A DNA stretch of 35,558 bases from SAR86 cluster bacterium (GTDB lineage: Bacteria; Pseudomonadota; Gammaproteobacteria; Magnimaribacterales; D2472): assembly GCA_029254395.1 (NCBI GenBank), contig JAQWXQ010000099.1:1-35558 (forward strand), given 5' to 3'. Numbering within the stretch: position 1 is the stretch's first letter; every line of letters starts with the position of its first letter. Shown one piece after another: positions 20,919-27,102 of this stretch. The notes under the pieces are model-generated. The model was not told the origin of the DNA. It saw nothing but the letters and a program-made list of their open reading frames with translations, and made no database searches. The translations under genes and the position numbers were made by a program.

Positions 20919-23324
20919 CTATATCACAAAATTAATAATTTTCTCTTTGATATAAATAACTTTTCTTATAGTTTGATTTTCTAAATTAGCTTTAATATTT
21001 TCAACCTCTTTTGCAGCACTTTCAACTTCTTCTTGTGATAAATTTTTGTCAATTTCAATCCTGCCTCTAACTTTTCCGTTGACTTGAATTACAAGTTGAA
21101 AGCTTTCCGCCTCCATAAGAGTCCTATCTGGAGCAGGCCAAGAAGTATCAATATTCCCAAGCATGCCAACTGTAAAATTATTCCATAAAAACTCTGAAAG
21201 ATGCGGTGCTATTGGATGAATTGCTTTGAGGATAAATATAATTGTCTCATTTAAGCAAAATATTTCAGATTCACTTGCCTGATCTCCCTTAAATGATTCA
21301 GGTATTGAATTAAAAAGTTCCATAATAGCCGCAATTGCAGTATTGAATGAATGCCTATTTTCGTAGTCATTCATAATTTTATTTAATGAAAAATGCGCCT
21401 TCCTTCTTAAATTTTTCTCATCTTTATTCAAGGTCTGGGGCTCATTAATTAACTCATATTTTCGACCATTAACCAAGTACCACAATTTTTTAAGAAATCT
21501 TGATGAGCCTTCCACCGAGGCTTCAGACCATTCTAGGCTTTGCTCTGGTGGGGAAGTGAACATCATATAGAGCCTCACAGTGTCTGCCCCATATTTGTCG
21601 ATGTATGATTGAGGATCAACTGTATTTCCTTTAGATTTTGACATCTTGGCACCATCTTTTAAGACCATGCCTTGAGTTAATAACTTTTTAAATGGCTCAT
21701 CACCATCGACAAGACCAAGATCTCTTAGGGCCTTGTGAAGGAATCTTGAATAAAGCAAATGAAGAATTGCATGTTCAATACCTCCAATATACAAATCAAC
21801 AGGTAGCCAGTAATTTGAGTTTTTATCGAATACCTCATCATCATTGTCAGCAGAAGGAAACCTTGCGTAATACCATGAGGAATCCATAAATGTATCAAAG
21901 GTATCTGTCTCTCTTTTATATCCTATTTTAGAGTTAATAAAATCATCATTTTGGCTCAGTGGAATTGGTCCCGATCCTTCAGGAAGTTTTGGAAGTTCAA
22001 CAGGTAGCTCACTTTCATCCACAAGAGATGGAGCACCATCTTTATATAAAACTGGTATAGGACATCCCCAGTACCTTTGCCTACTTACACCCCAATCTCT
22101 GAGTCTAAATTGAACTAAACCCTCTCCAAGATCACTGCTTTTAAGCTCTTCAATAATTTTTGAAATAGCTTCTTCTGATTCAAGACCATCATAATTTGCT
22201 GAGTTAAGAAGTTTTCCTTTCTGTAGTATAGGCAGCTCGCTAGCTTCGCCACTTATAACCTGTTTAATATCCAAATTATATTTGGAAGCAAATTCAAAGT
22301 CTCTTTGATCATGCCCAGGAACACCCATCACAACCCCAGTACCATAATCAAGAAGAACAAAATTACCTATCCACAGTGGTATTTTATTTCCTGTTAACGG
22401 GTGTATTACATTTAAACCTGTTTTAATGCCAAGCTTTTCTGCCTTTGCCATATCTGCTTCTGCAGCTTTAACTTCCTTACATTTAATCAAGAAGTCATTT
22501 ACATCTGAATTATTTTTACCTAGCTCAATAGCAATTTTGTGTTGCGGCGAGATTGCTAGGAAGCTTGCGCCAAATATAGTATCAGGTCTTGTAGAAAATA
22601 TAGTTAGATATTCATCAGAGTTTTCAATCTTAAACTTTATATGTGCTCCATTAGATTTACCAATCCAATTTCTCTGCATAGTTTTTACATTTTCTGGCCA
22701 GTCAAGTCCATCCAAGGAATCTAATAATTCATCTGCATAGTCTGTTATTTTGATGAACCATTGATCAATTTCTTTAATCTCAACTTGAGCACCTGATCTC
22801 CAACCTTTGCCATCTATAACCTGTTCATTTGCAAGAACGGTCTCATCTACTGGATCCCAGTTTACAAAAGATTTCTTTTTATAGACGAGCCCTTTTTCGT
22901 GAAATTTCTTAAAAAGAAGTTGTTCCCACTTATAGTATGTAGGCTCGCAAGTTCTTAATTCCTTAGACCAATCATACCCAAGACCAAGAGAATTCAATTG
23001 ACCTTTCATATATTCAATATTCTGCTTAGTCCATTCTGAAGGGCTTACTTTATTTGCTATTGCAGCATTTTCGGCTGGCAACCCAAATGCGTCCCATCCC
23101 ATCGGTTGAAATACATTAAATCCCTGCATTTTTTTATACCTAGATATAACATCGCCAATTGTATAGTTCCTAACATGACCCATATGCAATTTGCCAGAAG
23201 GGTAAGGAAACATTGATAAACAATAAAATTTCTCTCTATCGTCTGGAACAGATTTAAAACGCTCTTCATCTTTCCATATCTTTTGGATAGACCTTTCAAT
23301 TTTAGATGGATTGTATTCACTCAT
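20919..23324 (-). CDS. leuS: Leucyl-tRNA synthetase (start reassigned to ATG at 23324)
   Basis: [44 protein letters not shown] (HIGH region), [21 protein letters not shown] (KMSKS). The ORF-track start at 23393 adds 23 residues not expected in LeuS and lies inside accC. Confidence 0.97.
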
Positions 23325-24669
23325 AGTTATTGGGCAAAAACTCTCTTTCAAGATAATTAATAGTGTGTTTATTTTCCTTAAAAGTTTCATCATTTAGCAC
23401 GTCTTGATGAAGAGAGTGATTTGTTTTTATTCCTTGAACAAAGAATTCATCAAGTGCACTCAACATTCTTTTTATTGCAGACTCTCTAGTATTTGCAAGC
23501 GTTATTATTTTTGACAATAGTGAGTCATAGTATGGAGGCACTCTATATCCTCCATAAATGTGTGAATCGTACCTAATACCAAATCCACCAGGTGTATGCA
23601 TCTTAGTAATCAATCCAGGAGATGGTTGGAAAGTTCTTGGATCTTCAGCATTTATCCTGCACTCAATAGCATGCCCTTTAAAATTTATTTCACTTTGGTC
23701 TAACTCAATCTCCATTCCTAAAGCTATTCTTAATTGTGCTTTAACAAGATCATACCCTGTTATCATTTCTGTAACTGGATGTTCTACTTGAATGCGGGTA
23801 TTCATTTCAATAAAGTAAAATTCCTCATTTTCATAAAGAAACTCTATAGTCCCAACTCCTTCGTATTTAATTTCTTTGCATAGCTCTACACAAGCATTAA
23901 GTGTTTGTTGAAGGGACTTCTCATTTACATCAAGCGCCGGAGCTTCTTCAATAATTTTTTGATGCTTCCTCTGCATACTGCAATCTCTTGTGCCTAAATG
24001 TATTGCCTCACCCATTCCATCACCAACAATTTGAACCTCAACATGCCTCGGGTTTTCAATAAATTTCTCTAGGTACACAGTCCCATTGCCAAATGCATTA
24101 AGCGCCTCTTGAATAGTGACCTCCAGAGAATTAAACAATTCAGATTCATCTCTCACCATCCTCATTCCTCTTCCACCACCACCCGCTGTGGCTTTGATCA
24201 TGATTGGATATCCTATTCGATTAACGATTTTTGATAGCTCTGATTTATCGTCAGGCAGATCGCCTTTATACCCAGGAACAATTTGAATCCCTGATTTTTC
24301 AGCCAGTGTCTTAGCGGTAATCTTGTCTCCCATTTTTCTTATAATGTCTGAACTTGGGCCAATAAATTTAAAGCCACTCTTTTCACACATTTCTGCAAAA
24401 TTAGGATCTTCTGCAAGGAACCCGTATCCTGGATATATAGCATTTGCCTCAGTTAATTCAGCCGCAGACAGGATAGACGCAACATTTAAATAACTTAATG
24501 TTGGGGAGGCTGGGCCGATACAAACAGTCTCATCTGCAAATTTTAAATGCTTTAGATCCTTATCAGCATTTGAGTAAACTGCAACGGTTTGTAAGCCCAA
24601 TTCTTTACATGCCCTCATGGCACGCAGGGCTATCTCTCCTCTATTAGCAATGAGAATTTTATAAGACAT
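23317..24669 (-). CDS. accC: Acetyl-CoA carboxylase, biotin carboxylase subunit
   Basis: [77 protein letters not shown]. Confidence 0.97.
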
Positions 24670-24670
24670 T

Positions 24671-25111
24671 TTATTCTATTGTTATTATGTGTTGATCAAA
24701 CTCAATTGGGTCGCCATCTTCAGCATTTATAGCAGTTATTTTGCCACTATATTCAGATTTAATTTCATTCATCATTTTCATAGCTTCAACAATGCACAAA
24801 ACGTCACCCACCTCTACTGAATCACCAACTTTTATGAATGGATCTTTGTCAGGTCCAGGCCTCCTATAAAAAGTTCCAACTATAGGTGACTTCACTGCGA
24901 GGCCAGTTACAGTTTCCGCTTGGTGAGCTTGTTGTTGAGGTGCGACTTGAACATCTGCAATGGTTTGGTTGCTTATAGGAGTAGCTGCTACAAATTGTGA
25001 GGCTCCACCTCTTGTAATCCTAACAGACTCATCTCCTTGGCCTACCTCTATTTCAGTGAGATCTGATTCTTGCAGCATCTCTATTAGTTTTTTTATTTTT
25101 CTTATATCCAT
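24671..25111 (-). CDS. accB: Acetyl-CoA carboxylase biotin carboxyl carrier protein
   Basis: MDIRKIKKLIEMLQESDLTEIEVGQGDESVRITRGG, biotinyl motif EAMKMMNEIKSE. Confidence 0.97.
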   Translation of the reverse strand: MDIRKIKKLIEMLQESDLTEIEVGQGDESVRITRGGASQFVAATPISNQTIADVQVAPQQQAHQAETVTGLAVKSPIVGTFYRRPGPDKDPFIKVGDSVEVGDVLCIVEAMKMMNEIKSEYSGKITAINAEDGDPIEFDQHIITIE

Positions 25112-25116
25112 AATTA

Positions 25117-25551
25117 TTACTTAAATTTTAAAATTGCATCAAGGAGTGCATATTCATACCCAGCAGCCCCAAGCCCACATATTACACCAGTTGCTTTGTC
25201 CGAGAAATACGAATGATGCCTAAATTCTTCCCTAGAAAATATATTTGAAATATGCACTTCATAAAAAGGAATGCCTACAGCAAGCAGAGCATCTCTTATT
25301 GCAATACTTGTATGCGTAAAAGCTCCTGGGTTTATAATGATCGAATCAATACTTCCATCAATATATTTTTGTATTTCATCAACTATCTCATGCTCAGCGT
25401 TACTTTGAAAAAAACTAATTTCACTACTGTGCATTTGAGCTAGGTCAGCAAGGTTATTTTCAATTTTATCAAGATCAATATCACCGTAGTGATTATTTTC
25501 TCTTTTACCGAGAAGATTTAAATTTGGCCCATTAACAACTAATATTTTCAT
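25117..25551 (-). CDS. aroQ: 3-dehydroquinate dehydratase type II
   Basis: [80 protein letters not shown]. Confidence 0.97.
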
Positions 25552-25593
25552 ATTTTTAGATTTTAACAGATTTTAAAATAATTTTTCAAGAAC

Positions 25594-26022
25594 TTATAAG
25601 ATTATATCGGACAGTTTTAATTTTTGTAATGGGTAGCAAAAACCTGATTCTGAACATCCTTGAAAGTATACCAAGATACTATCGATATTTAAGTCTTTCT
25701 CTAATTCAAAACGAAGGGAAAGTTGCCCTTTAAATATCTGAGTGTTTCCAAAATATTCATCACTGAAAGTCGATTCATTTGAGCTTAAAATTTTGAAGTT
25801 ATATATGTTATTTGGATCACTGAGCTTAAATGATTTTTTATACATGTAGTAACCATCTTTTATGGACCAACTGATATCTACAATATTATTTTTTTTAAAA
25901 CCTGAAATAGCAAAAGCCTCAGATGCATTTAAAATAACTTCGTCCTGATCAAGAAAGGCATTTGCATAGCTTGCTTGAGCTATAAGGATAGCTGCCAAAA
26001 TAATATTTAATGCTTTAAACAT
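25594..26022 (-). CDS. Standalone DsbD N-terminal (nDsbD/DsbD-alpha type) periplasmic domain protein
   Basis: 142 aa with signal peptide; contains VYFQGCSESGFCYPLQKLKL, matching the nDsbD Cys pair (GCADAGFCYP in E. coli). Stop immediately after the domain; no DsbD membrane or thioredoxin domain follows. Confidence 0.85.
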   Translation of the reverse strand: MFKALNIILAAILIAQASYANAFLDQDEVILNASEAFAISGFKKNNIVDISWSIKDGYYMYKKSFKLSDPNNIYNFKILSSNESTFSDEYFGNTQIFKGQLSLRFELEKDLNIDSILVYFQGCSESGFCYPLQKLKLSDIIL

Positions 26023-26091: not shown

Positions 26092-27102
26092 ATGTTTAAA
26101 AAAATAATTTTAAATTTTTTCTTCTTTTTACCAGCCTGGTTTTTTGAGTTTATTGGAATTTTTAACAAGACTATTTCACGTGGGCATATATTAGACTCTC
26201 AAACTAAAATTTTTCTTAATTTCATACCAACTAAAGATCTAGATGAAATCGTAAATATTGATATTCCAAGAATTAGATCATCTTATGAATCAAGAGCTAG
26301 TTTTATATCTACTGTGCCAAAGCCAGTGCAAAGTGTTTTGTTTGAAGACATTCAAATAAAACAATCCAATTTAAGGATGAGGAAATATTCACCATCTAAA
26401 TCATATACTAATAAATCAATTTTATATTTTCACGGAGGAGGGTACGCGTTTGGAAGCATTGAAACGCATCATGAGCTTTTAATGTATTACTCTGCTTATT
26501 TGGGGGCTGAAATCTATTCACTAGGATACTCATTATCGCCAGAAAATAAATTTCCTGTTGCATTAGCAGACGCCATGACATCATACAAATGGCTATTAAA
26601 TTCAGGGGTTTTGCCAAAAAATATAAGCCTGTGTGGAGATAGTGCAGGCGGACACCTTGCTGCATCTTTGTCATACAAGTTAAGCCAGGACGATTTGCCA
26701 CTTCCAGATAGCCAGTTACTTATATATCCAATGATTAGCCCGGGTTGTAAAACAGAATCATTTAAGCTCTATGAGTCCAATTATTTTTTGACCGCTTCAA
26801 ACATGCGATGGATATGGAAAAAATTGTCTGACAATAATATGAACAATAACAACCCCTGCTTTGATCTTTTAGGAGGAGTTTTTCAAAAGGATAAATTTCC
26901 AAAATCCATTATTGTCACTGCTGGATTCGATCCGTTGTGTGATGAAGCAGAGAAATATGCCTACCTATTACATCAAAAACATATTAATATTCACCAACTG
27001 CATTACCCGTCATTAATTCATGGCTTTGCTTCTATGAGTAAACTAAAGAGAGCAAAATTAGCAGTAGATAATTTTTTAGATGAATATAAGAAAATATTAT
27101 GA
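26092..27102 (+). CDS. Alpha/beta hydrolase, HSL (hormone-sensitive lipase)-like esterase
   Basis: LYFHGGGYAFGSIETHHELL (HGGG oxyanion), SLCGDSAGGHLAASL (GDSAGG nucleophile), GFDPLCDEAEKYA, HGFASMSKL. Confidence 0.9.
   Translation: MFKKIILNFFFFLPAWFFEFIGIFNKTISRGHILDSQTKIFLNFIPTKDLDEIVNIDIPRIRSSYESRASFISTVPKPVQSVLFEDIQIKQSNLRMRKYSPSKSYTNKSILYFHGGGYAFGSIETHHELLMYYSAYLGAEIYSLGYSLSPENKFPVALADAMTSYKWLLNSGVLPKNISLCGDSAGGHLAASLSYKLSQDDLPLPDSQLLIYPMISPGCKTESFKLYESNYFLTASNMRWIWKKLSDNNMNNNNPCFDLLGGVFQKDKFPKSIIVTAGFDPLCDEAEKYAYLLHQKHINIHQLHYPSLIHGFASMSKLKRAKLAVDNFLDEYKKIL

Follow-up and report, generated by a model that had tools for sequence, protein, structure and literature searches.

A free-standing DsbD N-terminal domain conserved upstream of aroQ in most of the SAR86 order, and an ScsB-type reductase as its likely partner

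DsbD is the textbook three-domain electron relay, and SAR86 is among the commonest bacteria of the surface ocean. The window analyzed here, a stretch of 35,558 nucleotides from a SAR86 cluster bacterium (contig JAQWXQ010000099.1), carries on its minus strand a short ORF for the N-terminal (alpha) domain of DsbD, nDsbD, hereafter the solo nDsbD or solo. Its stop codon is followed, after 42 bp, by aroQ and then by accB and accC:

25594..26022, minus strand: stand-alone nDsbD (DsbD alpha domain), 142 aa; PF11412 at 77.3 bits, fold as 1L6P, Cys pair in 47/47
25636..25656, minus strand: active-site stretch C-S-E-S-G-F-C (Cys123-Cys129), equivalent to E. coli C103/C109 by alignment and the numbering of PMC7347389
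25747..25761, minus strand: cap-loop stretch D-E-Y-F-G, residues 88-92, corresponding to E. coli D68-E69-F70-Y71-G72 in an alignment of 47 solos
25552..25593, minus strand: 42-bp gap between the solo and aroQ, with no room for a transmembrane (TM) or thioredoxin remnant
25117..25551, minus strand: aroQ (type II 3-dehydroquinate dehydratase), syntenic anchor
24671..25111, minus strand: accB, syntenic anchor
23317..24669, minus strand: accC, syntenic anchor

These coordinates confirm the first-pass annotation, in which the ORF ends with the domain, 42 bp before aroQ, and leaves no trace of the TM or thioredoxin domains.

The ORF starts with ATG and encodes a classical nDsbD. DsbD_N (PF11412) matches residues 30-134 with 77.3 bits (cut-off 25, E 1.3e-21), no other Pfam match was found in the ORF, and just positions 1-134 of the 574 in NCBIfam NF001419 (protein-disulfide reductase DsbD) align with it. 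A PDB sequence search returned nine matches at E <= 2.5e-7, all of them nDsbD of E. coli or Neisseria. The AlphaFold2 model, for which the window protein was combined with related loci (mean pLDDT 88.6), predicts an immunoglobulin-type fold as in E. coli nDsbD (1L6P), which is also the top match when the model is compared with the PDB by Foldseek (E 3.6e-10, TM 0.62/0.73); all 18 PDB matches at E <= 0.001 are nDsbD structures. Judged by eye, the N-terminus, MFKALNIILAAILIAQASYANA, resembles a Sec signal peptide, putatively residues 1-22, and the model has a helix predicted at residues 3-24. A full DsbD carries an 8-TM domain and a C-terminal thioredoxin domain on the same chain, whereas this ORF stops after alpha. 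The earlier assignment of the 142-aa ORF to nDsbD is thus borne out by profile, PDB sequence matches and predicted fold, and the structural comparison with E. coli nDsbD, where a poor match had been named as grounds for abandoning the assignment, puts nDsbD first in the PDB.

In E. coli nDsbD, a cap loop (D68-G72) with F70 shields the C103-C109 pair, and electrons pass from cDsbD (gamma) to nDsbD (alpha) and on to DsbC, CcmG and DsbG (PMC7347389). The solo carries the motif GCSESGFC, its Cys123 and Cys129 having the same spacing as C103/C109, as annotated at first pass, and both cysteines are invariant in an alignment of all 47 intact solos. Cap-loop residues D88 and G92 are likewise invariant (47/47), as are the Gly preceding the first Cys and one Tyr. 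The position equivalent to F70 is aromatic in 46 of the 47 (F 40, Y 6, L 1), the window solo with its Tyr90 being among the six Tyr cases. The alignment as a whole is strongly divergent, with a mean column identity of 30%.

The sample in which these solos were found comprises 61 genomes, i.e., the window's own and 60 relatives of the same order, in families f1 (37 genomes), f2 (8), f3 (8) and f4 (8). The 47 intact ORFs fall into three families, with 34/37 genomes in f1, 5/8 in f2 and 8/8 in f3, and aroQ lies directly downstream on the same strand in every one of them, L071 being counted among them from its coordinates. A scan of genome contigs found 44 short nDsbD loci in named, mostly SAR86, records, again all upstream of aroQ. 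The gap to aroQ is about equally small in dozens of genomes, single-contig ones included. Solo-bearing genomes are small (~1-1.8 Mb), and the catalytic residues are invariant in them. The three f2 genomes without a solo are those in which the aroQ locus was not found or is truncated at a contig end, and two short frames, G182 C113 and G151 C236, are not counted as solos, since contig ends cut both. A divergent alpha/beta hydrolase gene (26092-27102 in the window) starts 69 bp from the solo; it adjoins the solo in most f1 genomes, and in f2 and f3 it is seen there only in G037. Because the solo is conserved across dozens of genomes, a chance ORF is ruled out; rather than being peculiar to one genome, the solo is shared by most of the SAR86 order. 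Whether the short form and its Cys pair persist in related genomes, which the first-pass annotation had left to an alignment of homologs, is hereby answered: both do, the former beside aroQ and the latter without exception (47/47 each).

No solo nDsbD was found in the eight genomes of f4, and the upstream neighbor of aroQ is a divergent hemB in 7/7 f4 genomes with aroQ found. Seen at the level of the individual loci (L230-L236), the solo is cleanly missing, and hemB, then trxA, stand divergent beside aroQ-accB-accC. Family f4 mostly retains DsbC and CcmH, and because it keeps these without the solo, the solo is dispensable in some settings. A solo nDsbD at the aroQ locus recurs in two other gammaproteobacterial lineages, with other partners. 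In G170, the gene row reads cutA-like, a 175-aa solo nDsbD (L112:2846-3373), aroQ, accB and accC, and the only DsbD_TM protein is a CcdA-type protein of 258 aa (L218:1441-2217). The aroQ locus of G144 holds a solo nDsbD, then a TlpA-like thioredoxin, then aroQ; elsewhere this genome encodes a 400-aa beta-gamma-only DsbD with a separate downstream C-x5-C alpha-like protein, and also a CcdA-type protein. The DsbD of G144 is naturally split (loci L113:2348-3555 and L219:335-2136).

Synteny and phylogeny both bear on the origin of the solo. Loci for full-length classical DsbD were retrieved from other gammaproteobacterial families, 15 in all, and in 11 of them aroQ-accB follows on the same strand, either immediately or a short way downstream; this agrees with the earlier statement that in Pseudomonas-like genomes full-length dsbD sits upstream of aroQ-accB-accC. 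In a maximum-likelihood tree of alpha domains (about 150 columns, a short domain whose deep branches are weak; input including 23 chains with tandem nDsbD domains), the SAR86 solos group with the alpha of the full-length, 585-aa DsbD of G201 (93/94), the gene for which ends 66 bp ahead of aroQ. ScsB-type alphas occupy a separate branch (100/100), and the solos of G170, G144 and G111 are placed elsewhere among classical alphas. As a single clade the SAR86 solos have moderate support (72/29), with a long-branched Campylobacter row near them. Tandem nDsbD pairs occur in many gammaproteobacterial DsbD proteins, in frames of about 740-900 aa (L082, L084, L085, L125, L126 and others). Because synteny, tree and gap agree, loss of the membrane (beta) and thioredoxin (gamma) domains in place from a full-length DsbD is the best reading and well supported; in-place loss with the Cys pair kept, as first proposed, draws its support from synteny, tree and conservation together.

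A genome search for DsbD beta and gamma domains, as suggested at first pass, yields a single DsbD_TM protein in the window's genome (G000), encoded on a different contig (C23:7579-9558, minus strand) and 659 aa long. It contains DsbD_N, DsbD_TM and Thioredoxin_7 domains and three Cys pairs; its alpha matches the periplasmic domain of P. mirabilis ScsB (6C29, E 1.3e-11), no nDsbD structure is among the PDB matches of this alpha, and the solo profile fails to match ScsB-type alphas. By its sequence, this protein is a complete ScsB-type reductase. Across ScsB-type proteins, the alpha and beta Cys pairs are present in 48/48 and the gamma pair in 47/48 (one gap). Each genome in which DsbD_TM was detected has one such protein, among them the single-contig G003, G008, G038 and G040; no DsbD_TM was found in G001, G020 and G023, the assemblies of which are probably incomplete. 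In G026 (C2:153144-153777), the ScsB-type gene lies in two frames and looks like one broken ORF, possibly owing to a frameshift or sequencing error. A separate CcdA was not found in the SAR86-order genomes searched, and a classical DsbD hidden elsewhere in the genome was rejected, since the second DsbD_N belongs to the ScsB-type protein and relatives have one DsbD_TM each. The solo and ScsB-type genes are unlinked in the genome, and no scsC-like or thioredoxin-fold gene was seen beside the ScsB-type gene (L003 neighbors, ORFs read). This partner inventory makes the ScsB-type protein the likely reductant of the solo. The earlier proposal of a separate partner, CcdA or ScsB-like, stands insofar as an intact ScsB-type reductase, the only DsbD_TM protein, is present; that it reduces the solo is what we infer from the inventory.

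The genome also encodes the classical nDsbD clients DsbC (at C21, with CGYC) and CcmG (at C70, over cut-off, with CcmH next), as identified from sequence. DsbC_N is found in 56/61 genomes and CcmH in 57/61; since both also occur in f4, client co-occurrence is uninformative as an explanation of solo presence or absence. Mirror-tree analysis gives a positive distance co-variation between solo and ScsB-type protein (partial r 0.30), which is not counted as evidence because the control, solo versus accB given aroQ, is equally high (0.41).

The explanation that we favor, and hold to be probable, joins in-place loss of DsbD domains to a relay in trans. An ancestor shared by most of the SAR86 order would have had a full-length classical DsbD at the dsbD-aroQ-accBC locus; this DsbD would have lost beta and gamma while its alpha survived as a free protein, and transmembrane electron transfer would have been taken over by the ScsB-type protein (G000:C23:7579-9558). 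Electrons would pass from cytoplasmic thioredoxin to ScsB beta, from there to ScsB gamma, and from gamma in trans to Cys123/Cys129 of the solo nDsbD, which would in turn reduce DsbC and CcmG. The solo would thus be a diffusible periplasmic adaptor through which an ScsB-type reductase can reach clients adapted to classical nDsbD. We infer both that the ScsB-type protein reduces the solo in trans and that DsbC and CcmG are the solo's clients. In E. coli, electron transfer is reportedly restored when the DsbD domains are expressed separately (Katzen and Beckwith 2000). A consideration against an adaptor is that the ScsB-type protein has an alpha of its own and might itself serve DsbC and CcmG. 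A more far-reaching version, to which we give an even chance, is a split chimeric reductase, in which an ScsB-type core replaced the classical DsbD core, the old alpha was kept as a trans-acting specificity adaptor between new transporter and old clients through most of the order's history, and at least two further splits arose at the same locus with other partners.

The alternative that survives best, although we consider it rather unlikely, sees in the solo an independent thiol carrier whose clients or electron source are new, while the ScsB-type alpha serves DsbC and CcmG. It would account for f4, where DsbC and CcmH occur with the ScsB-type protein alone, and would suit both the TlpA-like thioredoxin adjoining the solo at the same locus in G144 and the high divergence of solo sequences (30% mean column identity); however, the residues conserved in the solos are the classical nDsbD ones, and no other candidate partner adjoins the SAR86 solo, which is flanked by aroQ and, in the majority of f1 genomes, by the divergent hydrolase. 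Such a role might lie, for example, in a pathway for peroxide or sulfenic acid in the periplasm, or the partner might be TlpA-like, both rather unlikely as well. That the solo is a decaying remnant without an important role, as its absence from f4 with hemB beside aroQ might suggest, is very unlikely given that it is intact in 34/37 f1, 5/8 f2 and 8/8 f3 genomes, that the three f2 gaps coincide with aroQ loci that either were not recovered or run into contig ends, and that its catalytic residues are invariant in genomes of just ~1-1.8 Mb. Independent acquisition of a solo nDsbD, which by chance would have taken the place of DsbD upstream of aroQ, is highly improbable: a solo away from aroQ does exist (L114 in G111, alongside a full-length DsbD), but the slot normally holds full-length DsbD, and the nearest alpha in the tree is that of such a DsbD. 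A frameshift or assembly artefact of full-length dsbD, which the first-pass annotation had named as fatal to its reading and for which the fragmented assembly of the window (145 contigs) might speak, is rejected as having a negligible probability, since close relatives carry the same short form, dozens of independent genomes, single-contig ones among them, show it at a similarly small distance from aroQ, and all 47 intact copies and all 44 short loci lie upstream of aroQ.

In the literature searched, with subscription papers outside its scope, no relevant description of a stand-alone nDsbD or of SAR86 DsbD was found. As far as this literature shows, the arrangement of a solo classical nDsbD with an ScsB-type reductase is undescribed, the component domains being known. 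Its novelty is limited because public databases already list short DsbD_N proteins under nonspecific names. With the adaptor reading, SAR86 seems to leave the last step of the relay to a free protein that receives its electrons from another class of transporter. This provides a natural test of whether an ScsB-type gamma can reduce a classical nDsbD and whether alpha sets client choice. That a single conserved locus goes with at least three different sets of partners suggests that the domains of the relay are exchangeable in evolution.

Compared with nDsbD of E. coli and Neisseria (PF11412), the solo shares the immunoglobulin-type fold, the C-x5-C pair and the cap loop and may likewise be exported, but is a free protein without the fused 8-TM and thioredoxin domains. 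The solos of G170 and G144, from other Gammaproteobacteria, are the same domain in the same slot upstream of aroQ-accB, yet G170 has just a CcdA-type protein as a partner, and G144 combines a beta-gamma-only DsbD with a CcdA-type protein and, next to the solo, a TlpA-like thioredoxin, as against an ScsB-type protein in SAR86. CcdA with a thioredoxin-fold partner (CcmG, ResA or TlpA) likewise places the membrane and periplasmic steps on separate chains, whereas the periplasmic piece in SAR86 is an Ig-fold nDsbD. With ScsB, the known client of which is ScsC (PMC8900818), the candidate partner shares the alpha, TM and thioredoxin domains, the three Cys pairs and the alpha match to 6C29; in contrast, the SAR86 gene stands without an adjoining scsC-like gene, and its proposed acceptor is the solo nDsbD.
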